A stretch of 64,000 bases of DNA, taken from NCBI GenBank assembly GCA_963169745.1, contig CAUJCU010000002.1, positions 372,001 to 436,000 of the forward strand. The letters are read 5' to 3'. Below the pieces are notes generated by a model that did not search any database, had not been told where the DNA came from, and saw only the letters and a program-made list of their open reading frames with translations. Numbering within the stretch: the stretch's first letter is position 1; every line of letters starts with the position of its first letter. This document shows positions 242-53,847 of this stretch, in pieces. Both the position numbers and the translations under genes were made by a program. This DNA is from Bacteroidota bacterium (lineage in GTDB: Bacteria; Bacteroidota; Bacteroidia; UBA4408).

Positions 242-820
242 TTAAAAACTGCTTCGTTGGTTTGAGACCTTTCCTAATCCTTTAAAAAACAGGAATAATG
301 TCACAACAAACAGAAGAATCCCAAAGCTTAATAAATACAAGCCCGTTTCATGTTGTTGCTCAATGGTAAATGAACTACATAGTAAAATAGCAAAAGTTTT
401 TAATACAGCCCCTGTAGCTATTAGCATAGCCGAAAGCATGAGTAGAAAAGCCATCTGCACTTCAAACATAATATTTCTGAATACCAAAGAAATAAAAAAG
501 CCTACACCTACAATATGCAGATGCATTACTCTGTTGAACCAAGGGTAAACAACTGTTAAATCAATAGAACGTGGGAGCATCCAAAACATTAATGAAAATA
601 GTGCTAAAATAAGAATAGCTATTCCCCATGGAAGATTGGTTATATTAATGTTTTTGTTTTGATATCCTATAAAAAGTCCGATAACCAACATCAATGGCAG
701 TTGTATGAGTTGATGCCTTGGCATTGTTTGAGAGAGCCAATGATTTAAAGGAAATGAGAGGATAAAAAAAAGAACTCCTAAAATACCAATCGAAAGTATA
801 AAAGTTATTCTTTTAGACAT
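242..820 (-). CDS. Small polytopic membrane protein of the SCO/oxidase operon
   Basis: A 192-residue protein with about six predicted membrane segments and almost no soluble part. A conserved-looking stretch, HWLSQTMPRHQLIQLPLM (near residues 27-44), resembles the His-containing motif of CtaG/DUF1404-like oxidase assembly proteins, but the match is by eye only. It is the last gene of the leftward subunit II-subunit I-SCO operon and overlaps the SCO gene by 16 nt, so the two are likely translationally coupled. A role in oxidase or NO-reductase assembly is inferred from position; no enzymatic motif is visible. Confidence 0.6.
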   Translation of the reverse strand: MSKRITFILSIGILGVLFFILSFPLNHWLSQTMPRHQLIQLPLMLVIGLFIGYQNKNINITNLPWGIAILILALFSLMFWMLPRSIDLTVVYPWFNRVMHLHIVGVGFFISLVFRNIMFEVQMAFLLMLSAMLIATGAVLKTFAILLCSSFTIEQQHETGLYLLSFGILLFVVTLFLFFKGLGKVSNQRSSF

Positions 821-1425
821 AAATAAAGTTGATCTATAATGGCTTGGTTACTTTCTCGAGTAGGATCAAAAGTACGAACTATTTTATGTTCTGGAGATAT
901 TAAAAATAAATATACTGAATGATTGATAATTGTGCTTCCGGGTGTTGATTTGGCCCACACGCCTACTTTTTGCAGGTAGCTTTCCAGGTCATGTTGTTTC
1001 ATTTGCCAAGGCAGGGCAAAAGTCCATCCTTGTATTGAGTTATTAAAATGATTTCGGTAATTTTTAATTTTTTGAACATGGTCATTCTTTAAATCAAAAC
1101 TCACCGTTACCAATTCTAATTTAGTTGGAATTACTCTATTATCTATGGCCAAGTATATATCTTCTAAGCGATTATTTATTTTATGGCAAACATAAGGACA
1201 ATTCAAATATACAAAATTGAGAAGTATATACTTATTCTTATCTTCTATTTGAAAAAGTGCACTGTCTTGGTCTATCATTTTTAAATTAGGAAAACTTCTT
1301 GGTAAATCCCCAGCACGGTCTAAAGTATGTGAGAAAACAGTGAATGCACTAAACCCCAAAGTCCATTTCCAAAAAATACTAATACAAAAAACTAAAGCAA
1401 GTACAGGAGGAAAAAAATTCTTCAT
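805..1425 (-). CDS. SCO1/SenC-family copper chaperone
   Basis: This 206-residue protein has one N-terminal membrane anchor and a thioredoxin-like domain. The copper site of SCO proteins is intact: Cys76 and Cys80 in CPYVC (CxxxC) and His169 in the NHSVYLFLI segment. SCO proteins load or reduce the CuA centre of oxidase subunit II. The neighbouring subunit II carries a full CuA site, so that is the likely client. It lies 50 nt downstream of the subunit I gene and overlaps the following small membrane protein gene by 16 nt, consistent with one operon. Confidence 0.9.
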   Translation of the reverse strand: MKNFFPPVLALVFCISIFWKWTLGFSAFTVFSHTLDRAGDLPRSFPNLKMIDQDSALFQIEDKNKYILLNFVYLNCPYVCHKINNRLEDIYLAIDNRVIPTKLELVTVSFDLKNDHVQKIKNYRNHFNNSIQGWTFALPWQMKQHDLESYLQKVGVWAKSTPGSTIINHSVYLFLISPEHKIVRTFDPTRESNQAIIDQLYLCLKE

Positions 1426-1475
1426 AAGCCTTGCTTTAGTATGTACTAATAAAAAAACAAATCAAACATAGCAAG

Positions 1476-2942
1476 CTATTTACTTGCCTTCAGTAATTTT
1501 GAGAACAAAGAGCCATACATTATGAGCAAACCAATAAGTACAATTATGACAAAACCTCCGGCTGTTTTAGCTAATAAGGCTCCCGTTTCATGAACATTTC
1601 CAATATCAATGCCGGTATAGTCGGCATACCGTCTTGGAACGCTTTTCATACCTCCCAAATAAAACATCAGTAAGAATCCGCTGGCACCAAAAACAAAAGT
1701 CCAAAATCCTAATCCGGGCTTTACGGCATCTCTTTCTTCTTTATTATTGTGAGCCAAATAAAATAAAAAGCCCAAAATGAATAAAACAACACCCAAAAGC
1801 ATATAGGTATGGAAGTGGGCTGGCACCCATAAGGTATTGTGCAGTATTTTATTGATTGACATGGTGGAGTCAACAACAGCTGCAAAGCCCCCAATTGCCC
1901 ATCCTGCCATTCCTAAAAGAAATGCCATAGGAATGATACTCCATTTTATTTTAGCATGATACACTTGAACAATAAGGCCAAACATTGTTACTACAGTGGC
2001 TGGAATAGAGCTCATATAGGAAGCAATTTGACCAGCATAGTGTAAAGATACCGGTTGTACAAAATCCATGTATAAGTGGTGAAAATAGGCAAACATGATA
2101 AATATGAATGTTCCATTCCAAGAATATACTACTACTTTATTCACCTTCCAGTCTCTTTTTGTAAATTCTGGTAATAATACATATACCCATGCCACACAGC
2201 AATACATAGTTACATTAACTAAAGTATGACCAAAAAAGAAAACCATATTTTTTAACAATAAGGGGTCAAATGTTAAGCTTGCCTCAAAATGTTGCATCAG
2301 GTTCATTATTAAAAACACAGCTCCTACAATAAACGATAATATAGCCGGCACTAAACTTGCAGTAGTAATTAAAACAATTGATGGGAGTTCTTTTTCAGGT
2401 TCTGTTTTTCCTAAATATTGCCAACCCATAAGATTTGAGAAACTCCCATATTCTTTAGCTAATGCATAAACCACATGTAAACTTCCCAGTAACCATGCTA
2501 CTCCCAAAATAATTAATGAAACTATAGTAAGACCGGTTGACCATCCAGTCCAACTAACCCCTTTAAATGGCAGTGGGTAAAGTAAATACCAGCCGGCAGC
2601 AAACTTGCCTATTAAGCTGGCAATAACCAGACCAACGGTTCCAATCAACACGAGCAAATAAACCAAATAACCTAAACCAATGTTTAGTTTAATATAGCGT
2701 GTACCTATTAAATAAAACAATGCAGCCCATGAAAAGCTGAATAAAACTCCAGCCATACCAAGTCCATGTAAGGTCATTAAAGCATAAAAAGTGCCCGGGT
2801 CAATCTTAAATACTTCACCTTGGTTTAAACGCATTAAAAGCCCAAGGGCAATAAGTACCGGAAATAAAATCAAAAAAGTAACACTCCAAATTACGATAAG
2901 TTTTTTATGTCTTTTTTGTTCTGCTGGGTTCTCTTGTAACAT
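1476..2942 (-). CDS. Heme-copper oxidase-type subunit I, probable nitric oxide reductase
   Basis: A 488-residue, roughly 12-TM heme-copper oxidoreductase core subunit. The metal ligands are visible: His59 and His378 for the low-spin heme, His376 for the high-spin heme, and His239, His288 and His289 for the CuB/FeB site. The usual HPEVY motif reads HTLVN, so Asn243 takes the place of the Tyr that is cross-linked in O2 reductases of the A and B families. Loss of this Tyr is expected in NO reductases, and the surrounding genes (RIC, DUF2249, Rrf2, azurin) point the same way. It is not a canonical NorB, which has a different FeB motif. It is translated just after the CuA subunit II. Whether it reduces NO, O2 or both is inference. 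Confidence 0.85.
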   Translation of the reverse strand: MLQENPAEQKRHKKLIVIWSVTFLILFPVLIALGLLMRLNQGEVFKIDPGTFYALMTLHGLGMAGVLFSFSWAALFYLIGTRYIKLNIGLGYLVYLLVLIGTVGLVIASLIGKFAAGWYLLYPLPFKGVSWTGWSTGLTIVSLIILGVAWLLGSLHVVYALAKEYGSFSNLMGWQYLGKTEPEKELPSIVLITTASLVPAILSFIVGAVFLIMNLMQHFEASLTFDPLLLKNMVFFFGHTLVNVTMYCCVAWVYVLLPEFTKRDWKVNKVVVYSWNGTFIFIMFAYFHHLYMDFVQPVSLHYAGQIASYMSSIPATVVTMFGLIVQVYHAKIKWSIIPMAFLLGMAGWAIGGFAAVVDSTMSINKILHNTLWVPAHFHTYMLLGVVLFILGFLFYLAHNNKEERDAVKPGLGFWTFVFGASGFLLMFYLGGMKSVPRRYADYTGIDIGNVHETGALLAKTAGGFVIIVLIGLLIMYGSLFSKLLKASK

Positions 2943-2991
2943 ATATAATAGTATTTAGAAATTAAAATTTTTTAAAGGATTAAACAGGATG

Positions 2992-3576
2992 TTAGTTAAT
3001 ATGAATTTTTCCTGTCATAAAGCCATGGGGCATACCGCAGTATTCCAAACATAAAATAGCATATTCACCGGGCTCAGGAAATGTATAGTATAATTGATTT
3101 TCATATTCCGGCATGGCTTGTGTTTGAGCAACCAAATCACCTTTACTGTTGTATATTGCAAAATTATGGTTCACATCCATTGAAGAAACAACAAACTGTA
3201 TAGACTTATTGGCAGGTAGTGTAATTTCATTAGTACCTACAAAATCATGAGGGCTTAATGTTGAAACCCCCTCTCCCATTTTCCAGGTCCATTGCATAGC
3301 AACTACCGTCACAATTTTATCAGCCGGAGTTGTTTGATTTTTAGGATAAGGTAAAAACTGTAAAGAAGAGAAAAAAAGAATAACGGCTACAGAAGCTAAT
3401 CCAATAAAATAACGCTTGCGAGCTTTATATACTTTTTCTTTTACTTCATGTTTATCTTCGTATGAAGATGCCGATGATATTAAAAAGAGCACAACAGAAA
3501 GCACTACTATTGCGCCTATCAATGATACAATACCGGCAAAATTTTGTACTGTAATTAGAGGTACGATTAAGTTCAT
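2992..3576 (-). CDS. Heme-copper oxidase subunit II with CuA site
   Basis: A 194-residue protein with two N-terminal membrane helices (about 10-35 and 56-76) and a periplasmic cupredoxin domain. All CuA ligands are present: His137, Cys176, Glu178 (backbone), Cys180, His184 and Met187, in the motif CLEYCGMPHGFM. It would accept electrons from a cytochrome c or cupredoxin and pass them to the subunit I encoded 49 nt downstream. It is first in the leftward operon, behind the divergent regulatory gap at 3577-3798. Classical cNOR uses NorC, a c-type cytochrome, so a CuA subunit fits an oxidase-derived NOR. Confidence 0.92.
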   Translation of the reverse strand: MNLIVPLITVQNFAGIVSLIGAIVVLSVVLFLISSASSYEDKHEVKEKVYKARKRYFIGLASVAVILFFSSLQFLPYPKNQTTPADKIVTVVAMQWTWKMGEGVSTLSPHDFVGTNEITLPANKSIQFVVSSMDVNHNFAIYNSKGDLVAQTQAMPEYENQLYYTFPEPGEYAILCLEYCGMPHGFMTGKIHIN

Positions 3577-3798: not shown

Positions 3799-5292
3799 AT
3801 GTCAACAACAGAAGAAATTATTATCAGAGTTCAAGAAATAGAACCACGATTAAGACATGCTACCATATTTCAAACCTATGAAAACCTAAATAATGGGGAG
3901 ACTTTTATAATTCATAACAACCATGATCCCATGCCGGTTTATTATCAGTTACAGCAAATGCACGGGGATACCTTTTCATGGGAATATATTCAAGAGGGGC
4001 CAGAGTGGTGGGATATTCGTGTAACCAAAAGAGCTGCATCAGCTCCAAGTATTTTTGAAAATGAAAATGGTAATATTGTTGTTAATGTACCAAACATTGA
4101 ACCCCGTGTAAAACATGCTACCATTTTTAAGGTTTTTGACTATATACAGCCTGGAAAAAGTATGATAATACATAATGATCATGACCCTAAACCGGTGTAT
4201 TATCAGCTTATAAACGAACGGGGTGATATTTTTACATGGCAGTATTTACAACAAGGGCCACAGTGGTGGGATATTCTGATTACAAAGAAGCAGCAAACAC
4301 AAACTGGCTCTGAAAGCTATAATTCAGAAATTGAAAAAGACGCTCATGGAAACCGAATTATTAATGTGCCTCAATTGGAACCTCGTTTAAAACATGCTAC
4401 AATTTTTAAAGTTTTTGATGAGCTTAATGAAGGTGAAAGCTTGGTTATTCATAACGACCATGATCCGAAACCGGTTTATTATCAGTTATTAAATGAAAGG
4501 GGTGATATTTTTACGTGGCAATACCTACAAGAAGGACCAGAATGGTGGGATATTAAAGTAACAAAAAAGTATATAAGCAGTAATGAAACAGTAGGTGAAA
4601 TTGCCGCAAAAGATTTAAGAAAAGTTGAAATATTTAAGAAATACGGAATTGATTTTTGTTGTGGCGGTCGTAAAACAGTTCGTGAAGCCAGTATAGAAAA
4701 AGGAATTGACCCGGCAGTGGTAGAAAAAGAGTTACAACAGCCTGTACAAATCGCTACCAACAACCACACAAATTACAATGAGTGGGAGCTTGATTTCTTA
4801 TCTGATTATATTATAAACATACATCATAACTATGTGCGGAAGTACGCTCAAGAGATAAAAAATTATGCGGCTAAAGTTGCTCAAGTTCATGGTAAACAAC
4901 ATCCAGAATTACATTCTATTAATAAATTAGTTGAAAAAGGAATTGTGGATTTGAGTGAACACATGATTTCTGAAGAGAAGCACTTGTTTCCACTTGTCAA
5001 AAAACTAATTCATGCAAGAAACAATCAAAGCACTTATACCAGACCCGAGAATTTTAATTTGAAAGCTTTTATCGAAAAGCACGAACAAGAGCATGACAGT
5101 GCCGGTAGAGATTTTGCTGAGATTAGAAAAATTAGTCAAAATTTTGCTATTCCTGATGATGCATGCACCAGTTACAAACTCTTGTATAAAATGTTAGATG
5201 AATTTGAAAATGATTTACATCTTCATATTCACTTAGAAAACAATATTTTATTCCCTAAAGCCATAGCGTTAGAAGAGTTAATAGCTAAATAA
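3799..5292 (+). CDS. Triple DUF2249-RIC (ScdA/YtfE)-hemerythrin fusion protein
   Basis: A 497-residue soluble protein built from known modules. Three DUF2249 domains (about 9-77, 96-163 and 188-255) share the pattern HDPxPVYYQL...F.W.Y...GP.WWDI. A ScdA/DUF542 domain follows (about 262-317, with Cys287-Cys288 in FCCGG), then a hemerythrin-like HHE domain (about 332-490) rich in His and Glu for a di-iron site. RIC proteins repair Fe-S clusters damaged by NO or oxidants; DUF2249 is commonly found beside NO-metabolism genes. Single RIC proteins are about 220-250 residues, so this one is doubled in length by the repeats. It is divergent from the oxidase/NOR operon. A second, plain RIC protein is encoded at 20705-21433. 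Confidence 0.9.
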   Translation: MSTTEEIIIRVQEIEPRLRHATIFQTYENLNNGETFIIHNNHDPMPVYYQLQQMHGDTFSWEYIQEGPEWWDIRVTKRAASAPSIFENENGNIVVNVPNIEPRVKHATIFKVFDYIQPGKSMIIHNDHDPKPVYYQLINERGDIFTWQYLQQGPQWWDILITKKQQTQTGSESYNSEIEKDAHGNRIINVPQLEPRLKHATIFKVFDELNEGESLVIHNDHDPKPVYYQLLNERGDIFTWQYLQEGPEWWDIKVTKKYISSNETVGEIAAKDLRKVEIFKKYGIDFCCGGRKTVREASIEKGIDPAVVEKELQQPVQIATNNHTNYNEWELDFLSDYIINIHHNYVRKYAQEIKNYAAKVAQVHGKQHPELHSINKLVEKGIVDLSEHMISEEKHLFPLVKKLIHARNNQSTYTRPENFNLKAFIEKHEQEHDSAGRDFAEIRKISQNFAIPDDACTSYKLLYKMLDEFENDLHLHIHLENNILFPKAIALEELIAK

Positions 5293-5338
5293 AAAGATGG
5301 TTTAGGAATTAATAACATTGTTTTCGGTATTAATCTGC

Positions 5339-5346
5339 TAATTTTG
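5339..5346 (+). promoter_or_regulatory. Candidate promoter TTG-N18-TAATTTTG
   Basis: TAATTTTG at 5339-5346 is preceded by TTG at 5318-5320 with an 18-nt spacer, a good match to the Bacteroidota promoter. It lies in the 100-nt gap after the RIC fusion and would give a leader of about 40 nt for the DUF1858/DUF2249 gene, so the downstream genes may have their own start as well as read-through. Confidence 0.55.
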
Positions 5347-5392
5347 GATAACCGCAAATCTTCAATAGTAAAAACAGCAAATAAGAAAGTTT

Positions 5393-6214
5393 ATGCTTAT
5401 AAACGAACAAACAAAAATAGCTGCCTTGTTAAAGCATAACCCCGATGCGCTTGAAGCTATAATAACCATTAGCCCTGATTTTAAGAAACTCCGTAATCCC
5501 ATTCTAAGAAAAATAATGGCCGGAAGAACCAGTATTTCTATGGCTTCGAAAATTGGAGGTTGCAGTCCTGAGGACTTTTTCAGAACCTTACAACCACTGG
5601 GTTTTGAAGTAGATAAAAACAGGATAATAGAAGAAGAAAAAGAACCCGAAAATAAAGCACTGCCAGATTATTTAAAAAACTTACCCCCCGAAAAACTTGT
5701 TGCTTTTGATGTACGGGCCATGCTTGCTGAAGGGAACGACCCCTTAAAGTATATTCAACAAAAAGTTAAAGCTTTGGAAGTTGGTCAGGTATTAAAAATT
5801 ATCAATACGTTTGAACCTATACCCTTAATAAAATTACTTGAGAAACAGGGTTTCCAGTCGCATGTAAAATATATTAATGCAAGTTGTATTGAAACCTACT
5901 TTTATAATGAAAGCAAGCAACAAGGGGCAATAAATTTGGATACTGAAACCGAATCATCGGGTGACTGGGATATTTTATTAAAACGCTACGAAAACAAACT
6001 AAAAGAAATAGATGTTCGACATTTAGAAATGCCGATGCCTATGATGACTATTTTAGAAAATTTAGAACAACTTCCTGATGACATGGCATTATATGTCAAC
6101 CACAAACGAGTTCCCGTTTTTTTGCTTACTGAATTAAAAGACCGTGGTTTTGATTACAGAATTAAAGAGATTCAAGAAGGGGAAGTGTATTTGTTGATTT
6201 TTAAAAGCTTATAG
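5393..6214 (+). CDS. DUF1858-DUF2249 domain protein
   Basis: A 273-residue soluble protein. Residues 1-60 look like a DUF1858 domain (small helical, with the KIGGCSPEDFF segment). Two DUF2249-like units follow, at about 97-170 and 195-270, each starting from a short V.A/H.D/E motif and ending in a strand. DUF1858 and DUF2249 occur together in anaerobic and denitrification-linked proteins, but no reaction is established. It starts 100 nt after the RIC fusion and ends 9 nt before the His-rich membrane protein gene, so it probably shares their transcript. The DUF2249 copies here are more diverged than those of the RIC fusion. Confidence 0.75.
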   Translation: MLINEQTKIAALLKHNPDALEAIITISPDFKKLRNPILRKIMAGRTSISMASKIGGCSPEDFFRTLQPLGFEVDKNRIIEEEKEPENKALPDYLKNLPPEKLVAFDVRAMLAEGNDPLKYIQQKVKALEVGQVLKIINTFEPIPLIKLLEKQGFQSHVKYINASCIETYFYNESKQQGAINLDTETESSGDWDILLKRYENKLKEIDVRHLEMPMPMMTILENLEQLPDDMALYVNHKRVPVFLLTELKDRGFDYRIKEIQEGEVYLLIFKSL

Positions 6215-6223
6215 CCCTTTATT

Positions 6224-7507
6224 ATGTTTCCAGGTGCTCCTGTTAATTTACAACAAACAACATCGTTTAAAGTTGTTTTACCCTTTTATGTTTATGCGGC
6301 TTTTTCATTTTTTATCGCAGCTATTCTTTTAATTTCAAACACCAACATATTTAATCAGCATTATTTTCACCCGCACACGCTTGCCCTTACGCATCTTATG
6401 GCCTTAGGTTGGGGCACCATGATTATTTTGGGGGCTTCACATCAGCTTCTGCCCGTAATTATTGAAGGAAAGCTTGACAGTATTCCATTGGCTTATTTAA
6501 GTTTTGCTTTTTCCGGTATTGGTATTCCTTTTTTAATAATTGGATTTTATATTTTTCATACCGGATGGGTTTTGCAAACGGGTGCAGTATTAGTTAATAT
6601 CGGTGTTCTTTGTTATTTGCTAAATGTTTTAAGCAGTATTTATGAAAGTAAGAAAAGTATTATTCATGCTTGGTTTATTGGGTTTGCCGCTTTGTGGTTG
6701 TTCAGCACTACTTTTTTGGGTTTGCTATTAGTGTTTAATTTAACACATAAACTACTCCCAAGCGATTCACTTGAATATCTTACGCTACATGCTCACTTTG
6801 GAATTATAGGCTGGTTTTTAATGCTAGTAATAGGCGTTGGTTCTCGTCTAATTCCTATGTTTTTAATATCCAAATACACGAACAACAAAATACTTTGGTG
6901 GATTTTTTCGTTACTGAATATAGGACTTATTTTATTTATACTTATAAAGATTTATGCCCTTCCGTTTACATTCTATTATTTACCGGTATTTCTTATTCTT
7001 ACAGGTGTAGGAATGTTTGGGTGGTACTGCCGAAAGGCCTATACCGTACGCATTAGAAAAGGGGTTGATGAACAAATGAAAATTTCTTTAATATCGGTTG
7101 GGCAAATGTTGCTGCCTATTTTTGTATTAGTTGTTGTGTTGCTTCTTGTGCCTTCTCAGCCCTCTCTTAATTTAATTATGTTGTATGGGTTTTGTGTGTT
7201 TTTTGGATGGCTTACAGCCATCATATTGGGCATGACTTTTAAAACGCTCCCATTTATAGTATGGAATAAAGTATATCATAAAAAAGCCTATGCAGGAAAA
7301 ACACCGGCTCCAAAAGAGCTCTTTAATGAAAAAATATTTACCGCAATGATGCATTCGTACCTTACAGGTTTTGTTCTTTTTATTATGGGTGTCATTTTTC
7401 TCCATTCTTATTTACTTCAAGCAGGAGCTGTCTTAATACTTGTTTCCTCTGCTTTATATCTAACTAATATTGTAATTATTTTACTTCACAAACCTTCAAA
7501 ACAATGA
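6224..7507 (+). CDS. His-rich 12-TM membrane protein, oxidase subunit I/NnrS-like
   Basis: A 427-residue protein that is almost all membrane helices (about 12). Two similar His motifs stand out. In the first half, His51, His57 and His73 lie around THLMALGWG and ASHQLLPV. In the second half, His189 and His191 lie in LHAHFGIIGW, followed by GSRLIPMF. The H..(L/I)GW....G...LLP pattern recurs in heme-copper oxidase subunit I relatives and in NO-linked proteins such as NnrS, but the full oxidase ligand set is absent. A heme or copper binding role in NO metabolism is inferred from these residues and the operon. Its stop codon overlaps the next start in ATGA. Confidence 0.65.
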   Translation: MFPGAPVNLQQTTSFKVVLPFYVYAAFSFFIAAILLISNTNIFNQHYFHPHTLALTHLMALGWGTMIILGASHQLLPVIIEGKLDSIPLAYLSFAFSGIGIPFLIIGFYIFHTGWVLQTGAVLVNIGVLCYLLNVLSSIYESKKSIIHAWFIGFAALWLFSTTFLGLLLVFNLTHKLLPSDSLEYLTLHAHFGIIGWFLMLVIGVGSRLIPMFLISKYTNNKILWWIFSLLNIGLILFILIKIYALPFTFYYLPVFLILTGVGMFGWYCRKAYTVRIRKGVDEQMKISLISVGQMLLPIFVLVVVLLLVPSQPSLNLIMLYGFCVFFGWLTAIILGMTFKTLPFIVWNKVYHKKAYAGKTPAPKELFNEKIFTAMMHSYLTGFVLFIMGVIFLHSYLLQAGAVLILVSSALYLTNIVIILLHKPSKQ

Positions 7508-7827
7508 ATGTTAAAACCAATGATGACATTAAGTGCAATTTTGCATTAACTGATTTGTATAATGTTGACGATCCTGAGATTGGACTGAATGTAGTAGATT
7601 TAGGATTGATATACGAAATAACTTTTCATGAATCAGAAAAAAAGCTGGATGCTGTGATGACCTTAACCACTCAGTTTTGCCCTATGGGAGAAAGTATTCA
7701 AAGTAATGTTACACAATCGTTAATGAATTCTTTCCCAGAATGGACAATTAACGTAAACTTGATTTTTGAACCACCTTGGGACTATTCTATGATTTCACCC
7801 GAAGGACAAGAATTTTTAGGCCATTAA
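7504..7827 (+). CDS. DUF59/MIP18-family Fe-S assembly protein
   Basis: A 107-residue DUF59 domain (PaaD/SufT/MIP18 family). The family signature is visible in DDPEIGLNVVDLGLIYEI near the N-terminus, with a later Cys in TTQFCPMG. These proteins help mature or insert Fe-S clusters. Translation overlaps the preceding membrane protein gene by 4 nt (ATGA), and the 3-Cys Rrf2 gene begins 3 nt after its stop. A role in maturing Fe-S proteins under NO stress, possibly including the Rrf2 sensor, is inference from this tight linkage. Confidence 0.85.
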   Translation: MNVKTNDDIKCNFALTDLYNVDDPEIGLNVVDLGLIYEITFHESEKKLDAVMTLTTQFCPMGESIQSNVTQSLMNSFPEWTINVNLIFEPPWDYSMISPEGQEFLGH

Positions 7828-7830
7828 AAT

Positions 7831-8259
7831 ATGCTAAGTTACACCTGCAAAGTAGCCATTAAAGCTGTCATTTATTTATCTGCCAAAAGTGCTAAAAATG
7901 AGAAATCGAGTATGCGCCATATTGCTGAAAATATTAATGCCAGCGAGCATACACTTGGCAAGATACTGCAAACGTTGGCACGGCATCGCTTAATTAATAG
8001 TGTAAAAGGGCCTTCTGGTGGTTTTTATCTTACCGAAAACCAGCAAAAGCAACCTGTTTTACATATTATTGAAACCATTGAAGGGAAAGAGGTTTTTAAA
8101 GAATGTGGATTGGGGCTTACGCGTTGTTCAGAAGTGCGCCCCTGCCCTATTCATCACGAATATAAAGTGGCACGCAATATGATTGAAGATTTGTTTTCAA
8201 AGAAAAGAGTTAAAGATTTAAGAGATTCAGTAAGTAATGGACTAGCTCATTTAAACTAA
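7831..8259 (+). CDS. Rrf2-family transcriptional regulator with 3-Cys Fe-S motif
   Basis: A 142-residue Rrf2 protein with the N-terminal winged helix (HTH about 28-60, ending in VKGPSGGF). Cys92, Cys99 and Cys105 (C-x6-C-x5-C) match the layout of Fe-S sensing Rrf2 proteins such as NsrR and IscR. NsrR-type members lose DNA binding when NO attacks the cluster. It sits in the middle of the rightward NO-related run, directly behind the DUF59 gene. Its closest relative in the window is the Rrf2 protein at 22264-22716, with the same Cys spacing. NO sensing is the likely role but is not provable from sequence. Confidence 0.88.
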   Translation: MLSYTCKVAIKAVIYLSAKSAKNEKSSMRHIAENINASEHTLGKILQTLARHRLINSVKGPSGGFYLTENQQKQPVLHIIETIEGKEVFKECGLGLTRCSEVRPCPIHHEYKVARNMIEDLFSKKRVKDLRDSVSNGLAHLN

Positions 8260-18160: not shown

Positions 18161-18204
18161 TGCAGAGTTTGACCTAAATCATAGGAAAAGTCAAGCGCTT
18201 TGAT

Positions 18205-18233: not shown

Positions 18234-20054
18234 ATGGCATCAAACGTACACAAATTTCATATCCCAGTAATGGGAGTATCATATACTATTGACACCCCTA
18301 TTAAGGTAGCCCGGTTTGGAATTTCTTCAGTAGTATCCATAATTGAAGATTCGTTAATTGAGCGTATGCGCGAATACTACTACAATAAAAACAACAAACC
18401 ATTTAAACCTATCACTAAAAATGAAAGTGATTACAGAGCCAAACGCATTACCGACTACCTTAACTTAATGAATCAAATTGTACACGAGCAGTTTGAAAAA
18501 ATAAAATCATTAGCCTTTGAAAAAGGGTCAGAAATTGTTCAGTATTTTGAAATGTTGCCTAATGACAGTAAATTAAAGCAAGCATATCTTTTAATGGCCA
18601 GCACAGAAGATGAAGTACAAAAATTGAAAATGCAGGATGACCTACGTATGCAAATGAAGCCCGGTAGAATTGATGTGAATATTATGGTAAAAGTAGATAA
18701 TAACCGACATACAAAAGATGGCTTAATTATTGAAGACGGCTCAGATGCAGTTACTGCTTTGCGTGGTTATGCTAACAGTAATCTTAAAAACTCAGCCATC
18801 GTTTTTTCAGCCGGTATGAATCCTCGGTTGTATAACTATCTTGAAAAACTGGAAGAATTTATTGCCCAATCTGATAATCCTGAAAGTAAGAAAATTATTA
18901 TTAAAGTAAGTGACTATCGGTCGGCTTTAATTCAAGGAAAATATTTAGCTAAAAAAGGAATTTGGGTATCAGAGTTCAGAGTGGAGTCAGGCTTAAACTG
19001 TGGTGGTCATGCTTTTGCTTCTGATGGTTATTTAATGGGGCCTATTTTGGAAGAATTTAAAGAAAAAAGGGAAGAAATTTGTTTAGAATTATATACATTA
19101 TATTGCAAAGCCCTTGTAGAGAAAGGAAAACCCACACCTGCACAAATGCCTAAATTAAAAATTTCAGCACAAGGGGGTATTGGAACCTGTCAAGAAAATG
19201 AGCTTCTGCTTGATTATTACAACTTAGACTCTACCGGGTGGGGAAGCCCAATGTTACTTGTTCCTGAAGCTACAACTGTTGATGAACAAACACTAGAAAA
19301 ACTTTGTGAGGCCGGTGAACAAGATATTATTCTGAGCAATCATTCTCCATTAGGTGTAAAGTTTAACACACTTCGTTTAGCTTCAAGTGAAAATGAAAAA
19401 CAATTGCGTATTGGTAAAGGTCATCCGGGAAGTCCCTGCCCTGAAAAACTACTTGTTAGCAATACTGAATTTACAAAGGAACCCATTTGTACTGCTTCGC
19501 TTAAGTATCAAAGACTAAAACTTCAGCAAATTAGTGAAATGGAGATAGAAGAAGCAGAACGCAAGAAAATGATTAAGGGTGTTACAGAAAAAGAATGTTT
19601 ATGTGTGGGATTAAGTAATGCTGCTACAACTGTTTATGCACAAAAGCCCTTGCTGCACACAAGCAGTGGAGTAAGTATTTGTCCTGGACCTAATTTGGCC
19701 TACTTCAATAAGGTAGTAAGTTTAAAAGAGATGATTGATCATATATATGGACACACGAATATCTTAAATCAAAGCTATCGTCCGCATTTCTTTATAAAAG
19801 AACTTCAATTGTATATTAATTATTTAAAGGAAGAAATAGCTACGCTAAAAGAAGAACTAGACAAAAAAACAAACAAATATTATTTGGGATTTTGTAACAA
19901 CTTATTAGACGGTATTGCCTATTACAAGCAAAGAGCTGATAAACTTAAAATACCTTCGTTTAATATAGAACGTGAATTAAAAACTGCTGAAAATTATGTA
20001 TTAAAAACCATAGAGCGTTTCAGTATTCCTAGCGTTGAGGTTGTTCTTACATAA
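18234..20054 (+). CDS. Conserved NMO-like TIM-barrel protein with Cys-rich C-terminal part
   Basis: A 606-residue soluble protein without a named function that I can place. Its central part resembles FMN-dependent nitronate monooxygenases. GLNCGGHAF (Cys256, His259) matches their EAGGHRG active-site loop, and ISAQGGIGT (about 310-318) matches the phosphate-binding AGGI loop. The N-terminus (HIPVMGVSYTIDTPIKVARFG) resembles the first strand and loop of that barrel. Five Cys at 402, 419, 455, 457 and 483 (SPCPE, ICTA, ECLCVG, ICPG) could bind a metal or Fe-S cluster. A long helical tail (about 520-600) follows. Comparable proteins are known to me only as hypothetical in Bacteroidota. It has its own promoter and a terminator. 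Confidence 0.6.
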   Translation: MASNVHKFHIPVMGVSYTIDTPIKVARFGISSVVSIIEDSLIERMREYYYNKNNKPFKPITKNESDYRAKRITDYLNLMNQIVHEQFEKIKSLAFEKGSEIVQYFEMLPNDSKLKQAYLLMASTEDEVQKLKMQDDLRMQMKPGRIDVNIMVKVDNNRHTKDGLIIEDGSDAVTALRGYANSNLKNSAIVFSAGMNPRLYNYLEKLEEFIAQSDNPESKKIIIKVSDYRSALIQGKYLAKKGIWVSEFRVESGLNCGGHAFASDGYLMGPILEEFKEKREEICLELYTLYCKALVEKGKPTPAQMPKLKISAQGGIGTCQENELLLDYYNLDSTGWGSPMLLVPEATTVDEQTLEKLCEAGEQDIILSNHSPLGVKFNTLRLASSENEKQLRIGKGHPGSPCPEKLLVSNTEFTKEPICTASLKYQRLKLQQISEMEIEEAERKKMIKGVTEKECLCVGLSNAATTVYAQKPLLHTSSGVSICPGPNLAYFNKVVSLKEMIDHIYGHTNILNQSYRPHFFIKELQLYINYLKEEIATLKEELDKKTNKYYLGFCNNLLDGIAYYKQRADKLKIPSFNIERELKTAENYVLKTIERFSIPSVEVVLT

Positions 20055-20147: not shown

Positions 20148-20666
20148 CTATTCTACAATAAAATGTCCTTTCATCATTGCTGAGTGACCTGGGAATGAAC
20201 ATAAAAATTCATAAGTACCTTTTGCAGGAGCAGTAAACTCTACAACTGCAGTTTCGCCTCCACCAATGGTTTTGGTATGCGCAATTACTTCACCTTCTTT
20301 TCCTTTTGGTATATAATCATTGTCTTTGGCATCAATTGCAGCAGCAGCAAAAGCTGCTAAATCAACACCTTGGTTTAATAATACAAAATTATGCCCCATA
20401 GCAACTGCTGGTGCTTTTCCGGAGTGAGTTAGAGTTAATTTTACGTTTGAACCTTCTTTTACGGTAATTTCTGTTTTATCAAACTTCATGTCATCACCGC
20501 CACTAATGGCCACCTCAACAGTTTCGCCAGCAGGTGTTGCTGCTGCTTCAGGAGCTGCTTCTTCTGTTGCTGGTGCAGCAGTTTCAGTACTTTCAGGTTT
20601 TGGGTCATTGTTACAAGCCGCAAAAATCATAGCTGTAGCGGCAAATGTTAGAATTGATTTTTTCAT
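20148..20666 (-). CDS. Azurin-type cupredoxin lipoprotein
   Basis: A 172-residue blue copper protein. The signal peptide ends in a lipobox (IFAAC, Cys18), so it should be membrane-anchored. An Ala/Pro/Glu-rich linker (about 25-47) leads to the azurin domain. Copper ligands match azurin: His92 (AMGHNF), Cys156, His161 and Met165 (FLCSFPGHSAMMKG). Azurins donate electrons to nitrite and NO reductases or peroxidases. It is last in the leftward Rrf2-methyltransferase-RIC-azurin operon, 38 nt behind RIC. With the CuA oxidase/NOR at 1476-3576 it could form one electron path, which is inference. Confidence 0.92.
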   Translation of the reverse strand: MKKSILTFAATAMIFAACNNDPKPESTETAAPATEEAAPEAAATPAGETVEVAISGGDDMKFDKTEITVKEGSNVKLTLTHSGKAPAVAMGHNFVLLNQGVDLAAFAAAAIDAKDNDYIPKGKEGEVIAHTKTIGGGETAVVEFTAPAKGTYEFLCSFPGHSAMMKGHFIVE

Positions 20667-20704: not shown

Positions 20705-21433
20705 TTAAGGTGTTGTTATTAAATTTTTTTCAAAAGTAATTGATTTTGGGAACAAAATGTTATTTTCTAAATGAATATGTAAATGTAAGTCATCTTCAAA
20801 CTCTTTTAACATAGCTAAAGTTACCCTATAGGTGTTGCAACCATCCTCAGGAGGTGTATAATTATGAGTTAACGAAGCAATAGTACGAAAGCGCTCTCCT
20901 TCCGTATCATGTTCGTGCATCATAGCTGCTATGGGGTTTTTAACGGAGCCAAATGATGCATTTACATTTGTTTTATTCATTTCAGCCTGAACCATTTTGC
21001 GAATGTATGGAAATAAAATTAATTCTTCCTTTTTCATATGTTGCGCTAATTCGCCAGCCGATTCTTTAAAAAGAACACCTACTTGTTCCAATTCAGGATG
21101 ACGCCCCCCATGAACTCGAATAATTTTTTCTAAAAAAGGAAGTATTTCCTGCGTTTTTGTTTCTACGTAACGATGATGTTTTTTTTCAATATAATCTGCC
21201 AGCAAATCTAATGGCCATGAACTATAATCAGTGGCTGAATTATTGTTTTGAGTAAATGCTTCCTTTAAGTTGCTTACCAATTGTTCGGCATCTATTCCCG
21301 ATTCATTGCAGGCATCAGAAATACTACGATTTCCTTGGCAACAAAAATCAATTCCGTTTTTCTTAAAAACTGTGGCTGCTCGGTAGTCTTTGGCTACCAA
21401 CTCCCCAATCATATCATTCTTTGTAATTTCCAT
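20705..21433 (-). CDS. RIC (ScdA/YtfE) iron-sulfur cluster repair protein
   Basis: A 242-residue di-iron protein. The N-terminal ScdA domain (about 1-55) has Cys31-Cys32 in DFCCQGNR; the hemerythrin-like domain (about 80-240) has the His and Glu ligands, ending in FEDDLHLHIHLENNILFP. These proteins repair Fe-S clusters and release NO from dinitrosyl iron. The ATG at 21433 is chosen because it begins at the family motif MEITKNDMIGELVA; the frame is open 13 codons further, overlapping the methyltransferase gene. Its HHE end is nearly the same as that of the fusion at 3799-5292, so the two are paralogues. It is in the Rrf2-led operon. Confidence 0.92.
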   Translation of the reverse strand: MEITKNDMIGELVAKDYRAATVFKKNGIDFCCQGNRSISDACNESGIDAEQLVSNLKEAFTQNNNSATDYSSWPLDLLADYIEKKHHRYVETKTQEILPFLEKIIRVHGGRHPELEQVGVLFKESAGELAQHMKKEELILFPYIRKMVQAEMNKTNVNASFGSVKNPIAAMMHEHDTEGERFRTIASLTHNYTPPEDGCNTYRVTLAMLKEFEDDLHLHIHLENNILFPKSITFEKNLITTP

Positions 21434-21455
21434 AATTAAATAAATTAAATTAGTA

Positions 21456-22226
21456 TTAAATTTTTTCGGCAATTATTACGATAGCGTTCATTTGTTTTTC
21501 ATATTTCTGAAAAGTGCTGCGCATCTCAAAAACACGCTTTCTTGCTTGAGGTTGGGTAAAAATATTATATCCAATTTTAAGTGTTCTTAAAAATCCTTCG
21601 TCATCAATTATACGATTCAGTTTAAGCAGGTGCATTTTATTCGTAAAAATTTTTCTTACTTTAAAACCTTCCTTTTCAATGAGTTTCTTCCACTCCTCTT
21701 GGGTTAATGGCCGAGCATTTACTTTAATTGACAATGCAAGGTCTTTTTGAATATTACTTTTTACATTTTCATCTACATCAGTAAGCCCCAATTCATGAAT
21801 AGCATAAACTCCACCCTTTTTTAAGATACGGTGTGCCTTTCTAATAATTTCTGACTTTCGGTGATCGGCATGCATGGTTAGCATAGCTTCTCCATAAACT
21901 TTTTCTTTAGAGTTATCCTCAAGGCCAGTTTCAGAGGCATTCCCAAGTAAAAACTTGATGTTATTCCCTTTTATTTGTGCCTTTAATAATTTCACCGCAT
22001 CTTCATCAGCATCTACACCAACGTAAGTTTTAGGATGGGCATTCAAGGTCAAAGAAGCGGTGTACCCCAATCCTGGGGCGAACTCTACTATATTGTCTTG
22101 AGTGTTTATCTCTAAAGCATCTACAAGTTTTTGTGTAAGTTCTTTACCGCCAGGTCTAAGAACTCGTTTTCCCATTTTTGCTAAAATCCAATGTCCTTGT
22201 GCTTTTGTAAAATCTTCTGTGTTCAT
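21456..22226 (-). CDS. SAM-dependent class I methyltransferase
   Basis: A 256-residue protein with the Rossmann methyltransferase core: motif I VEFAPGLGYTASL, then VGVDADEDAV and FLLGNAS. The ATG at 22226 is preferred over a TTG at 22238. The substrate cannot be read from the sequence. It lies between the Rrf2 gene and RIC in one leftward operon (37-nt gap upstream, 22 nt to RIC), so it may act under NO stress. A UbiE-like or small-molecule methyltransferase is the best family-level guess. Confidence 0.75.
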   Translation of the reverse strand: MNTEDFTKAQGHWILAKMGKRVLRPGGKELTQKLVDALEINTQDNIVEFAPGLGYTASLTLNAHPKTYVGVDADEDAVKLLKAQIKGNNIKFLLGNASETGLEDNSKEKVYGEAMLTMHADHRKSEIIRKAHRILKKGGVYAIHELGLTDVDENVKSNIQKDLALSIKVNARPLTQEEWKKLIEKEGFKVRKIFTNKMHLLKLNRIIDDEGFLRTLKIGYNIFTQPQARKRVFEMRSTFQKYEKQMNAIVIIAEKI

Positions 22227-22263: not shown

Positions 22264-22716
22264 CTATGAAGCAATTCTGTCTTTTCTTACTAATATTGAT
22301 TCTCCTGAATTAAATTTTGTGGCCAACTCAAAAATGGTAGTTGTCTCCAACATCTTTTTTAACTCTTCTCTAATCTGTACAAAATTTTCATGCATAGGGC
22401 AGGGTTCTTGTGCATTACATTCCGTTAGTCCCAAGGCACAACCATTGTAAATAGAATCTCCATCAATAGCAAAAACAATTTCACTAATTTTAATTTCTTT
22501 CATTCTTTTTATTTCAATATCAAAGCCACCATAAGGGCCTTTTAAAGAATTAATGATATTGAATTTGGTAAGTGTGCCTAAAATCTTGGCTGTAAAGGCA
22601 CGTGGTGATCCTGCTTTTTCTGCTATATCATCAATTTTTATACGTTTCCCTTCTAAAGATTGTGAAGCAATATAGATAACTGCTTTAAGACCGTATTCGC
22701 ATGATTTTGAAAACAT
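22264..22716 (-). CDS. Rrf2-family regulator with 3-Cys Fe-S motif (NO-responsive candidate)
   Basis: A 150-residue Rrf2 protein starting at ATG 22716 (MFSKSCEYGLKAV), the normal family start; a TTG at 22734 is in frame but unlikely. The winged helix covers about 28-60, with NSLKGPYGGF at its end. Cys93, Cys100 and Cys106 keep the C-x6-C-x5-C spacing of the paralogue at 7831-8259. It heads the leftward methyltransferase-RIC-azurin operon. Its promoter is overlapped by an AAGAT...ATCTT inverted repeat, consistent with autoregulation. NsrR/IscR-like cluster sensing is inferred from the Cys motif. Confidence 0.88.
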   Translation of the reverse strand: MFSKSCEYGLKAVIYIASQSLEGKRIKIDDIAEKAGSPRAFTAKILGTLTKFNIINSLKGPYGGFDIEIKRMKEIKISEIVFAIDGDSIYNGCALGLTECNAQEPCPMHENFVQIREELKKMLETTTIFELATKFNSGESILVRKDRIAS

Positions 22717-22744
22717 ATTTTCAATTTGGCGCAACGAAAGTAGG

Positions 22745-40333: not shown

Positions 40334-43300
40334 TTACTTAATAATTCTTTTGGTTACCATTTCATTATTGCTACGTAATGTTATGATGTAAACGCCTTCG
40401 GCCATATTATCTAAATTCAATTTCACAGTACCGCTTTTACCCTCAAACTCTTGCATAGTTGCTACCATTTGTCCTAATGCATTAACTATTTGGATACTTG
40501 CCTTGGTGTTTTCAGCAAAATTAAATACCGCAAAATAAACTCCATTTCGAGTTTGAATATCCATATATGAGCTGCCGCTATTAGCTGTTGCTTCTGAAAC
40601 AAACAACAAACGACTTTCTGTTTCAGAACAATTCTCTTTTTGCTTAGTTAAACTAACAGTATAAGTGCCTGCTTGTTTATATTGGTAAGAAACATGAGCA
40701 AGGTTTTCTACAATAGTGCCATCACCCAAATCCCAGATTAAGTTTTCGTTTTTATAACTCAAAGCTTGTAGCTGAATAGGTTCATTTATAGAAACTTTAT
40801 CAGAGGCTAATTCAAATTTTGCATCTATTGTTGTTTGTGCTTCAATATTAACCGCTTGTGTCAAGTCGCCACAAATTCCTGAGTTACTAAACCGCAATAA
40901 ATAACTACCAGATTTCAAGTGTGAGAAGCTGTAGTTTTGACTAATTTCAACATCTTCAATAATCCTACCCTGATCGGATAATAATTGTACCTTCCGGGTT
41001 TGATTATCGGGGTTAATTAATAAAATAGCACCGTCATTATTGTTACTGCATGATGCATTTGAAATATAACGTTTTAGCGGACTGGTTATATGAATAACAA
41101 AACGTGGATCTTTAAACCCAACCGTTGCCGTAAAGTAATATACTGAACCTTCGGTCATAATGGTTTGCTCGCCAGTCTTTAAATCTTCAAGAACCAAGCA
41201 AGTACCTGCTTCAAATTTGTTTAAGCCTTTCCAGCTTATTTGATACATTCCATTGCTGCCCACTGTTACACGAACCGGAATGCTTTGTGATGAGCCACTA
41301 AAAGGCAATCCGTTTATAGATAAATCTTTACTGTTGCAAATGCTGCTGATGGATGGATTACCCGGGTCATTACTAAACATCTTAAAGGCATCATGTGTGC
41401 CATCAAATTGTTTACTGGCCGATTCTGATAAATAAATAACCGTTTCATCATTTAAGCTGTCGGCAAGTCCACTTACTTTTAATCGTAGCACATTATTAGG
41501 GTCAAACTCTTTAAAGAAAGTAGGATTTGTTGAACTTTTAGCATTTTCACTTATAGTTAAAGCAGGTGAAGCTGCATTTGCATGTACGTAAAATCCTTGT
41601 GATGAGGCAATATAGCGTGTAGCACCGTTTGTTCCAATACCGTTAATAAATGTAGCATATTGCCCATTATCTGCTTGATACATATATATAGCATCATCAA
41701 TATTTGTTTTTGTCCATGAGCCAGATAGCCAATCAATAGCACTTGGATACGGGTTGGCAATTAAATTAAATCCATCGCCTGAGTTAGCACTATTCGTAAA
41801 GCTCGGATTAAAGTTAAAGTTACCTATTGTTGGTTGTCCGGTTACATTAAAAGTAATGTCAGGAGTAGTAGTTGTGTTAGCCCCACCTGCACCATAAGCA
41901 CCTAAATATACCCAAAACCCTTGACCAACCGTAGTAGGATTGGTAATATTTGTAGCAGCCACATAAGAGCCTGCAGCATCCATATCACCTGCCGGTGTTT
42001 CATCATAAGTATAAACTGAAACAAAGCCCCCCATTGAAGGTCCTTGATAAGCCCCGGTAAATCCGGTCATTGGAAAATCGTCAATCCAATGCGATAATGT
42101 AGCACCCTGTATATTAGTCCCAATTAAAGCCCATCCTGTCGAGCCTCCAGGAGCGTAACGTTCCATAGTTATATTTCCAATATAGTTAGCACCACCGCTA
42201 ACCGGTGCTATATGGGCTGTAGAAGTTGAATTTGATTTAAAAATAAAACTTTGAGCATTATTTGTGAATACCCCATTAGTAAGCGTAAGTGTATTCAGTA
42301 ATTGAGCATGATAATTTAAATTTAATCCTACGCTACTGTTTAACTCTAAATTATAAAACTCTGTAGTAACGCTATTTGTACTCGTTATTTGATGAGCCTG
42401 AGCAGTAATTCCGGCACAATCTAAAAACTCAACTTTACCAACACCAGCATTAAAATCACCATTGTTTGTAAATTTGCCATAAACACTTAGCGTATTTCCA
42501 GAATTTACTGTAAGTGTTGCCCCATTTTGTATTTCGATATTAAAGCAAGAAACTGCTCCGTTAATTTGTGGGTCATTGGGAGTTCCTGAAGGAATGATGG
42601 CAGTTGTTTCATTATCAGGAATTCCATTATCCCAGTTACCCGGTGAAGAAGCACTCCAATCGCTTGTTACCCCCAACCAGGTAGATACGGGCCCTGTAAA
42701 GTTTACAGTAATACTATTAGAGGTTACAGATGCTGGAATAGGGCATGAAGCACTTGATGTTAATACACAAGTAATTATATCACCATCCAATAGGTTGTTG
42801 CCTGAGTAAGTGGCTGAGTTGGCTCCTGAAATATCATTTCCGTTACGTTTCCATTGGTATCCAGGTGTTGCACCACCATTTGTAATGGAGCTATTAAACT
42901 GCATACCTAGGGTGCAAATATTGGTTTGTGAACTACTAATACTGATACTTGGTGTAACTACTGGTGTAACAGTCATGCTGATGGAGTTACTTGTTGCTGT
43001 AGTTGGTGAAGCGCAGGCTAATGAACTCGTCATAACGGTATGAATAACATCAGCATTACTCAAAGTAGATGACACCAAAGTGTTGCTAATGCCTTGTGAT
43101 ATTCCATTAATAAACCATTCGTAAGTGGGACTTCCTCCACCATTAACTGGGGTTGGAGTAAAAGTAACCGTTGTGCCGCTGCAAATACTTGCAGATGGGC
43201 TGGCATTAATACTTACTGCAGGAGTTAGTAGGGTACCTACTGTCATGGTAATTAAATTGCTGTTTACAACGGTAGGCAAAGCACAAGCTTCACTTGATGT

Positions 43301-46300
43301 TAACACGCAAATAATATCATCACCATTAATCAAAGAGGTGTTAGTATATGAGCTTGAATTTGTTCCCACGTTAACTCCATTTAATTTCCATTGGTATGTT
43401 GGGAATAAGCCTCCATTAGTTATTGAAGCATTAAATGTTACCGAAGTCCCATCGCAAATACCGCCTGGAGGATTGGCTGTTATACTTACAGTAGGAGCCG
43501 AAGTAGGATTTACCGTTATAGTAACATCGGCACTAGAAGCAGTGTTTGCTGTCCTGCAAGCTGCATTACTGGTTAATATACATTTAATTACATCGCCATT
43601 TGCAGGTGTTGCTAAGGTGTACGAAGGGCTGTTTGTTCCAACATTAACCCCGTTTTTCTTCCATTGGTATGATGGACTGGCTCCCCCGTTAGCTATTGAT
43701 GCATTAAAAGTAATGGGTGTTCCCAGGCAAACATTTGAACCGGGTAGTGCACTAATCGAAATACTTGGTGTAACAGATGGAGTTACCGACATAGTGATAG
43801 GATTACTAACAACCGGATTAGGATAGGCACCTCCCAAACTGCTGGTTAGAATACAGGTCACAACATCATCATCAACCAAGGCATTGCTGCTGTATGTAGT
43901 ACTATTTGTGCCCACATTGACACCATTTACTTGCCATTGATAAGATGGAGTTGTTCCTCCATTTGTAGGTACAGCGGTAAAAGTTACATTAGTTCCGGAG
44001 CAAATAGTGCCTAAAGGGCTGGCAGTTATAACAACAGATGGGGTATTCTGAAACTCTCCACCGGCACCCGCTGTATAATCACCCACTAAATAGTTTACTC
44101 CTGTTAAAGTAATCGTATTGGCCGAGGTGTTAACTGTTCCCGGAATACCTCCTAATGGGGTCCACAAAGGAGTTAAAAATCTTCCTGCTACATAAGCCGC
44201 TTCAGACCCTGTAACATCAGCTTGTATATAATTATAAGTATGTGTAACCGTTAATCCTGAGAAGCCCGTTTCTAAAACTTTCCAATAAAAATTTAACTGT
44301 GTGTTAGGTACTAGTGTTGTATTGGGATGTTTTCCATTAACCGGTTGTATATTTATTGTACCCGGGCTCGAATTGGCTGTAATATCGTAGTTTACAGGTG
44401 TATAACGACTTGCTGTTCCAACAGGAAAAGTAAAATTAGCTGTCCCTGCTGCAAATTCTTTTTGAACCCCTAAGCCCGATGCTAAACCATTGCCCTGAAT
44501 GTATCGACTTGCTGTTACACCGGTAATTGTTGTATTTAGCCCTAAAAATAATCTCCGGCTGTTTAAAACAAATCTTCCATTTATAAATTCCAAATTATTA
44601 TCTATAATGGCGTTTTGTGCTAAACCAACATTGGCATTATTATTTACCTTAATATTGTAGAAAGTGGTTATTGTAGAGCCTGAGATAGGCTGTATAGAAG
44701 TTCCGTTAAAAGTAACATTAGCATTATTATGGGTAAACACTCCGGAGTTTGAAAAGCTAGTAAATAAATTTAAATCTCCTGAAGGGGCTTCAAAATTTCC
44801 TTGAGTAATATTTAACCCTCTTATAGACCAGTTTGTTGTAGCATTAGCACTTACGTTTCCAGCTCCTTTATAAACTACAATATTAGGGCTTCTTGGGGCA
44901 GCTGCATCAACCCAATAAGTTTGATTAGCAGGCCCGTTAAAAATAAAACTACCAGTACCCCCATCTGACCCTGCATTAACTATTAAATTATTTTGTGTAC
45001 TGGCTAAACCATTAAATAGCCCATCATTATGAATAAGGTCAGCAATTGCTTTTATGGTATCACCGGCTGCTGTTGTAAGGGTGGCATAGTAACCACAGTA
45101 ATTTAATCCATTAATACGCACATAATTAAACCATGTTGCTGGAATAACATCAACCATAAAAGTTGTAGGAGTGCAAGTACTACCACTAGGTGCAAAAACC
45201 ACAGTGCCGCTGTTATGATTAAATGTTCCTGAAGTATGCGTAAATATAATTGACGCTCCTTGAGAACCTCCAATATTAAAATCTCCAGAAGGGGCAATAA
45301 ATGATCCTTGAAGTAAACTAAATTTAGTTAAATACAATTCGGTTGTACCGGAACCCGGACTTAAAGTATTAGCTGTTTTGTTTACTACTAAATGAACTGT
45401 TCGTGGTGCAGAAAGTGCTATATTATATGTTTGGGCCGATGTTCCATCAGCAATAATTTTTCCAGAACCTCCATTAGCACTTGCATCTACATAAAGATCT
45501 CTTTTAAATTGAGCTATCCCATTAAAAACACCATCGGTATGGGTAAAATCATTTGTAGCATCAATTGTATCACCAACGGCAGTAGTAACCACAGCATTAT
45601 AGCCGCAATATTGTGGGGCATTTATTTTAACATTAAAAAATGCAGTTGAAGGTATAACATTAAGGGTAAATGTATGGGTAGTACATGAACTTCCTGTTGG
45701 GTCAACAATCAGGGTTCCATTATTGTGGTTATATGTTCCTGAAGTGTGGGTAAATATAGTTGATGTTCCTTGAGAACCCCCTACGTTAAAATTACCACTC
45801 GGTGCGGTAAAACTACCTTGAAGTAAAGAAAATTTGGTAACCTTTAAATTCGTTGTTCCCATAGCCGGAGTGAAAGTTCCTGATGTCTTATCTATGATAA
45901 GTTGAGCGGTTCGTGGTGCTGATGAAACAACGGAATAGGTTTGCGCACCGGTACCATTGGCGCGGAGTATTCCTAATCCGCCATCAGCGCCACTACTAAT
46001 AATTAAATTACCTTGAAAATTAACTTCTCCGTTAAAAACACCATTAGTATGTGTAAAATCGTTCTGTGCCACAAGCACATCACCGGTTGAGCTGGTAACT
46101 ACTGCATTATAGCCACAGTATTGTGGGGCATTTACAGTTATACTATAAAAAACGGTAGCGGGAATAACATCTACTTCATAAGTATGTGTTCCGCATGTAC
46201 TGCCTGTGGGGTCAAAAACAACAGTTCCATTATTATTATTGAATGTTCCCGATGTGTGCGTAAAAATGGTACTGCCCGGCTGTGAAGCTCCTATTTTAAA

Positions 46301-53291: not shown

Positions 53292-53847
53292 ACAAAACAA
53301 GTTGATTCAATTATCAACCATCAAAAAAACGACTTTTTTATCTTAAATACTTGTAAAACTTTAAAAAAATCACTTATAATTTTAAATAACATTTAATAGT
53401 TTGTGTATGAAAAACAAAAAAACTATTTCTTATACTATTTTCTTGTATTGCATATAAAAGTTTATTTATGCTTCAAATATGCGCCTTATTTAGGGGAATG
53501 AAAAAATGTGCTCAAATAACCTTTTAGTTTCATTTTTATAAAAAAGCGATATGCTCAAAGTTTATCAAATAATGAATTGATATTTGTTCTTTGGGCAAAA
53601 AGGCTACTTCTCAAAACAGATAAATTGATGTTTGCTTATCGGGAATTTAATCTGTAAATCAAACTTGATTTCCCTATGTTATCTATGTCTCTGCGCTAAA
53701 AAGGTATTTTTTTAATAATTTACTTTACCCAGAAATAATTTTTTGCTATCTTTGAAATAGTATTTAATTTGTTTATAAAACTCTAATGCTGTTTTCAGTT
53801 TGAAAGTAAAACCAGTAAAAAACATTGTCAATTATAATTTAATTAAC
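53292..53847. other. 556-nt AT-rich intergenic region
   Basis: No gene or RNA is recognised here. The only clear signal is the promoter box TATCTTTG at 53747-53754, about 93 nt before the lipoprotein start. The stretch marks the start of an accessory segment running to about 58760. Confidence 0.55.
53747..53754 (+). promoter_or_regulatory. Candidate promoter box TATCTTTG
   Basis: TATCTTTG matches TAnnTTTG and would serve the lipoprotein gene at 53848 with a leader of about 85 nt. Confidence 0.45.

Follow-up and report, generated by a model that had tools for sequence, protein, structure and literature searches.

The closest described system to the gene studied here (A1) is FabX of Helicobacter pylori (HP0773; PDB 7e1q), an acyl-ACP dehydrogenase/isomerase that converts decanoyl-ACP to cis-3-decenoyl-ACP and to which A1 is likened by sequence and model. 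FabX belongs to the nitronate monooxygenase (NMO) family and carries FMN and a [4Fe-4S] cluster with the ligands C300, C304, C308 and C320, His182 being the catalytic residue and S179 and F339-T340-G341 contacting the FMN (PMC8626469). It uses O2, unlike the anaerobic role proposed below for A1. The UfaA/Npd protein of Neisseria gonorrhoeae (NGO1024) is an NMO-family protein, a likeness to the fold of A1, and is given about 36% identity to FabX; it is described as anaerobically induced (anaerobic stimulon) and essential for anaerobic unsaturated fatty acid (UFA) synthesis, with an unknown acceptor. The enoyl reductases PfaD and FabK share the FMN barrel fold with A1 (Z 23–25) but lack a [4Fe-4S] subdomain, FabK having an NAD(P)H-binding motif instead.

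A FabX-type comparison set was assembled from the sampled genomes and consisted of L262, L263 and the 420-aa FabX-like proteins of Chlorobiales (L128–L136), the last related to FabX with E 4e-33 (Chlorobiales and similar taxon labels in the sample are inferred). The Chlorobiales proteins resemble A1 in a C...C...CLC pattern aligned by hhalign, and differ from it in matching Pfam NMO, in a CWTC motif and in an Ala in place of C256. They were present in all sampled Chlorobiales with the Cys motif CX12CX24CXCX7CXXC, and are possibly the unsaturated-fatty-acid enzyme of these bacteria. No genome had both A1 and a FabX-like gene (0 overlap); this apparent exclusion was dismissed, being confounded by the Chlorobiales clade.

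The features of the window, the whole stretch of 64,000 nucleotides that was analysed, are collected in Table 1. The A1 frame was open throughout, the motifs CGGHAF (residues 256–261) and AQGGIGT (312–318) were present, and the five cysteines 402, 419, 455, 457 and 483 lay where the original prediction had placed them; a sixth Cys of the same kind, C256, was found inside CGGHAF.

Table 1. Positions of A1, its proposed functional sites and neighbouring features in the window.
Feature	Position	Strand	Remarks
A1, gene of a 606-aa FabX-like flavoprotein	18234..20054	+	outside every Pfam/NCBIfam family
C256-G-G-H259	18999..19010	+	His259 aligned with FabX His182, C256 with S179; invariant (144/144)
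C402, proposed [4Fe-4S] ligand	19437..19439	+	invariant; aligned with C319 of Chlorobiales relatives
C419, proposed [4Fe-4S] ligand	19488..19490	+	invariant; aligned with C332 of Chlorobiales relatives
C455-L-C457, proposed [4Fe-4S] ligands	19596..19604	+	invariant; CLC common to Chlorobiales relatives
C483-P-G-P-N487	19680..19694	+	ungapped against FMN-contacting F-x-G-x-N of FabX (F339-T340-G341)
Putative FNR/Crp-type operator TGACCTAAATCA	18170..18181	+	TGAYN4RTCA, 64 bp upstream of ATG
Azurin/plastocyanin-type cupredoxin	20148..20666	-	convergent neighbour; not conserved beside A1
RIC/ScdA-type di-iron protein	20705..21472	-	ScdA_N + hemerythrin
Rrf2-family regulator	22264..22734	-	convergent to A1
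Second low-O2/NO cluster	3799..8259	+	strand of A1; DUF2249x3-RIC, DUF1858-DUF2249, multi-TM protein, Rrf2

Homologues of A1 were found on 76 genome contigs (45–68% identity). Within the phylum-level group of the window 112 of the 296 sampled genomes (~38%) were carriers, nearly always with one copy, and none was found in a plasmid search. The family had been supposed to be Bacteroidota-specific, which did not hold: the 76 loci extend to Omnitrophota, Ignavibacteria and, in a few cases, proteobacterial MAGs, although the taxon of single MAGs carrying A1 may be misassigned. In a tree A1 formed one deep group with support 100/100, no other group being placed firmly as its sister. Conservation of the cysteines, on which the predicted cluster depended, was confirmed, C256, C402, C419, C455, C457 and C483 being retained in 77/77 and 144/144 homologues. 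In the set of 144 non-redundant representatives (<90% identity), between which identity was never below 37% and had a median of 47%, exactly these six were invariant, so that the cluster is under strong constraint; the pattern is not due to chance, because the remaining five Cys (283, 291, 319, 358 and 554) vary.

Searches of A1 and 50 homologues against Pfam and NCBIfam gave no meaningful match. The profiles of Pfam NMO (PF03060) and Glu_synthase (PF01645) had no A1 match at E ≤ 1, FabK (TIGR03151) and PfaD (TIGR02814) were without an NCBIfam match to A1, and NMO, FabK and PfaD were absent from the families listed for the 50 homologues; thus, no profile placed A1 in an unrelated known family. 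The family, unnamed and widespread, is without a Pfam or NCBIfam entry. A weak Pfam match to DUF1192 (residues 521–548) and a weak PDB sequence match to the HAS1 helicase (22 bits) were rejected as helical or chance similarities. A search of the A1 family profile against PDB sequences found nothing; FabX has a direct sequence identity to A1 of about 18% and was not recovered by single-sequence or HMM searches.

An AlphaFold2 model of A1 built from the family alignment had a mean pLDDT of 89.3 and a pTM of 0.89. Its top match by both Foldseek and VIA-align was H. pylori FabX (Foldseek E 5e-10; Z 27.6 over 333 residues, rmsd 3.1), the FabX matches spanning Z 26–27.6 over ~330 residues, followed by PfaD (Z 24.9), FAS enoyl reductase, FabK (Z 23–24) and, lower, NMO. 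A1 is about 240 residues longer than FabX, with extra helical parts, and shares with it the NMO-type FMN barrel and an aligned catalytic His. Comparison by hhalign of the A1 alignment with FabX and the Chlorobiales FabX-like proteins gave a probability of 95.7% and E 9.6e-9, pairing IDVNIM of A1 with IGVNIM, NCGGHAF with KAGGHLGF and SPLG with SPVG. The NMO-like barrel proposed originally is therefore supported by model, fold search and hhalign, and the suggestion of FMN plus Fe-S is well supported, since the closest solved fold, FabX, carries both of the cofactors expected in A1.

The catalytic His182 and the FMN-site residues N99, E175 and GG of the FabX type have the counterparts H259, N149, E251 and G257-G258, which together with G14, G485 and N487, likewise at FabX catalytic or FMN positions, were invariant in 144/144 representatives. 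On the helix aligned with alpha-7 of FabX, which is basic and binds ACP, R229, K240 and K241 are conserved, the exact counterpart of R164 not being assignable; this helix is compatible with a carrier-protein partner. Alignment by hhalign with the Chlorobiales set alone reached the Cys region, where C455-L-C457 paired with C357-L-C359, and C402 and C419 paired as given in Table 1. Residues 483–501 of A1, CPGPNLAYFNKVVSLKEMI, gave an ungapped match, by eye, to FAGANAFKATRITSVKELI of FabX, in the same register as the last aligned pair of the fold comparison (A1 507 and FabX 363).

These correspondences divide the cysteines into two groups. As S179 and F-T-G (339–341) contact the FMN in FabX, and S179 and F339 are replaced by Cys in A1, C256 and C483 most likely face the flavin, and C483 is probably not a cluster ligand. 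With these two assigned to the flavin, C402, C419, C455 and C457 are left as the natural cluster ligands, and we infer from the alignments that they bind a [4Fe-4S] cluster; of the five C-terminal Cys for which an Fe-S role had been predicted, four are thus retained and C483 is set aside. The four-Cys subdomain of FabX falls in the interval that separates SPxG from the FMN segment (xxGxN), and A1 has exactly four conserved Cys in the same interval. Their spacing is CX16CX35CXC in A1 vs. CX3CX3CX11C in FabX, for which reason A1 was not filed as FabX.

A palindrome scan without a preset motif was applied to 134 non-redundant regions upstream of A1, and the most over-represented palindromes were TGAC-N4-GTCA and TGAT-N4-ATCA. 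The combined form TGAY-N4-RTCA, a box of the FNR/Crp type, preceded 31/134 A1 genes, against 72/1731 of the remaining genes there (p 3e-13). Half-site spacings of 3, 5 or 6 gave little excess, and the longer motif TTGAYN4RTCAA only a mild one. In the window, the TGAY-N4-RTCA box was not found in the promoters of RIC, Rrf2 or azurin.

Direct neighbours of A1 in other genomes included HemN (4 bp apart in L025), Rrf2 (4 bp apart in L002), RIC in some loci, and NadB/NadA. A nosZ-L-D-F-Y operon adjoined A1 in L182 and was also found in the regions of L178, L181, L183 and L231; NorQ/NorD-like genes adjoined it in L031, with a NorB-like fragment elsewhere, and heavy-metal ATPase/cytochrome oxidase genes in L183 and L205. 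The four genes of the second low-O2/NO cluster of the window lay directly upstream of A1 in L177, with Rrf2 at 25 bp. HemN, NosD, NirK, NadB and NrdD were identified by NCBIfam; the names NorQ, NosY, NosL and, for the fragment, NorB are based on sequence and gene order only. An Rrf2 gene accompanied A1 in 13/91 regions and was absent from all 40 controls; p values for such neighbourhood markers are biased, because the markers were picked from A1 loci, and whole-genome linkage and co-occurrence were therefore used instead.

RIC (PF04405) was present in 76/112 A1 genomes vs. 41/184 others (odds ratio 7.4, p 6e-15) and the association persisted without Chlorobiales (odds ratio 4.2, p 1.3e-7), p values that are optimistic, as is that for NosZ below, because the genomes are related. 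It lay within 20 kb of A1 in 20/76 genomes, with ~0.9 expected, a linkage that spans five families, one of them (f24) supplying 14 of the 20. NosZ was within 20 kb in 16/55 genomes (~0.6 expected), its co-occurrence with A1 having the lower odds ratio of 3.1 (p 0.03 when Chlorobiales were left out). The link to the adjacent azurin/RIC operon, uncertain in the original prediction, is thus supported across several bacterial families for RIC, Rrf2 and nos, but not for azurin, which was beside A1 in 0 loci elsewhere and showed no association. Membership of A1 in the low-oxygen/NO regulon is strongly indicated.

The neighbours of A1 at Omnitrophota loci were a BioB-like radical-SAM gene and what appear to be menaquinone genes, rather than genes of denitrification. 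At 13 loci, most of them from Omnitrophota (L007, L014, L015, L021, L033, L036, L039, L045, L046, L049, L056, L061 and L068), A1 was divergent from the BioB-like gene, which was often followed by TrxR-, UbiE/MenG-, MenF- and MenD-like genes; most of these loci had a ThiC-like gene on the opposite flank. A pyridoxal-phosphate-type decarboxylase-like gene followed A1 in L003 (2367–3599, 4 bp apart) and L004 (6997–8238), and relatives of it were near A1 in L176, L178 and L182.

The reading that we prefer, with a probability of about 0.5, is that A1 is a FabX-like FMN plus [4Fe-4S] enzyme of an anaerobic/NO regulon that likely acts on acyl thioesters, perhaps for O2-free UFA synthesis. A1 would be cytosolic and belong to an undescribed flavoenzyme family with FabX as a distant relative; its NMO-type TIM barrel would hold FMN, with His259 as acid/base, and a C-terminal subdomain in place of the FabX cluster domain would bind [4Fe-4S] through its four cysteines. 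C256 and C483 would flank the FMN and may share in its redox chemistry, and electrons would pass between FMN and [4Fe-4S] as in FabX. An FNR/Crp-type regulator would switch A1 on at low O2 or NO, in a regulon with RIC, Rrf2, nos/nir/nor and O2-independent enzymes such as HemN and NrdD, a placement that the linkage and operator statistics support. The enzyme would dehydrogenate an acyl thioester, perhaps with isomerisation, to give unsaturated or otherwise modified fatty acids when the O2-dependent desaturase, of which the genome has one, cannot act, a task that falls to FabX in H. pylori and, in Neisseria under anaerobic conditions, to UfaA. This job is assigned by analogy, because the closest folds handle acyl thioesters, and in view of NGO1024, the HemN/NrdD neighbours and the O2-dependent desaturase of the host; the acyl substrate itself is offered as a hypothesis, since no fatty-acid gene was consistently adjacent to A1 across the loci examined. 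Because O2 is the acceptor that FabX requires, a homologue working anaerobically would have to use a different one.

Other readings keep the low-oxygen context and change the substrate or the job. HemN and NadB/NadA directly beside A1, and the BioB-like, TrxR-like and apparent menaquinone genes at Omnitrophota loci, would suit a biosynthetic oxidoreductase that works without O2 and, within the low-oxygen regulon, handles a non-acyl substrate, such as a heme, quinone or NAD precursor; this is rather doubtful, as acyl thioesters are the substrates of all the closest folds (FabX, PfaD, FabK and FAS enoyl reductase), and the neighbours differ by clade with no single pathway constant. An accessory of NO metabolism or denitrification, whether an Fe-S repair partner of RIC, an NO-responsive redox protein or a nos/nor maturation factor, would explain why A1 is so strongly linked to RIC, Rrf2 and nos operons, but appears unlikely when NosZ is absent from 57 and RIC from 36 of the 112 carriers, and full conservation of the catalytic His and the FMN-site residues argues for an enzyme that has a substrate of its own. 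That A1 detoxifies nitro compounds arising in nitrosative stress, in the manner of a nitronate monooxygenase, as its NMO-type barrel and NO-related gene context might suggest, is highly improbable: the Pfam NMO profile does not match it, NMOs score below FabX, PfaD and FabK against A1 and lack an Fe-S subdomain, and an enzyme that uses up O2 fits a low-O2 regulon poorly.

If the preferred reading of A1 as a low-O2 UFA or acyl enzyme is true, it may explain the membrane fluidity of facultative Bacteroidota during denitrification without an O2-dependent desaturase; if the acyl role is false, A1 is still an enzyme of the nos/NO regulon awaiting assignment. It would extend the FabX group of Fe-S flavoenzymes by members whose cluster motif is different and in which a pair of Cys faces the flavin, and provide a system for asking what replaces O2. 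More tentatively, A1 could represent a separate undescribed FMN/[4Fe-4S] class with flavin-flanking C256 and C483, using an acceptor other than O2 for O2-independent desaturation or another anaerobic dehydrogenation, and be an anaerobic desaturase counterpart in denitrifying Bacteroidota, Ignavibacteria and Omnitrophota.

Elsewhere in the window, the multi-TM protein of the second low-O2/NO cluster (427 aa) had no Pfam match, and oxidase COX1/COX2 and SCO-like genes adjoin this cluster on the opposite strand (805–3576). A 407-aa membrane protein without a Pfam match and with an HTHSH motif is encoded at 52077–53300 (minus strand); relatives of it were near A1 in L176, L178, L183, L195, L002 and L025, and also in one control region. 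The frame at 40334–47239 (minus strand) encodes a repetitive, apparently secreted protein of 2301 aa with a C-terminal motif like T9SS sorting signals.
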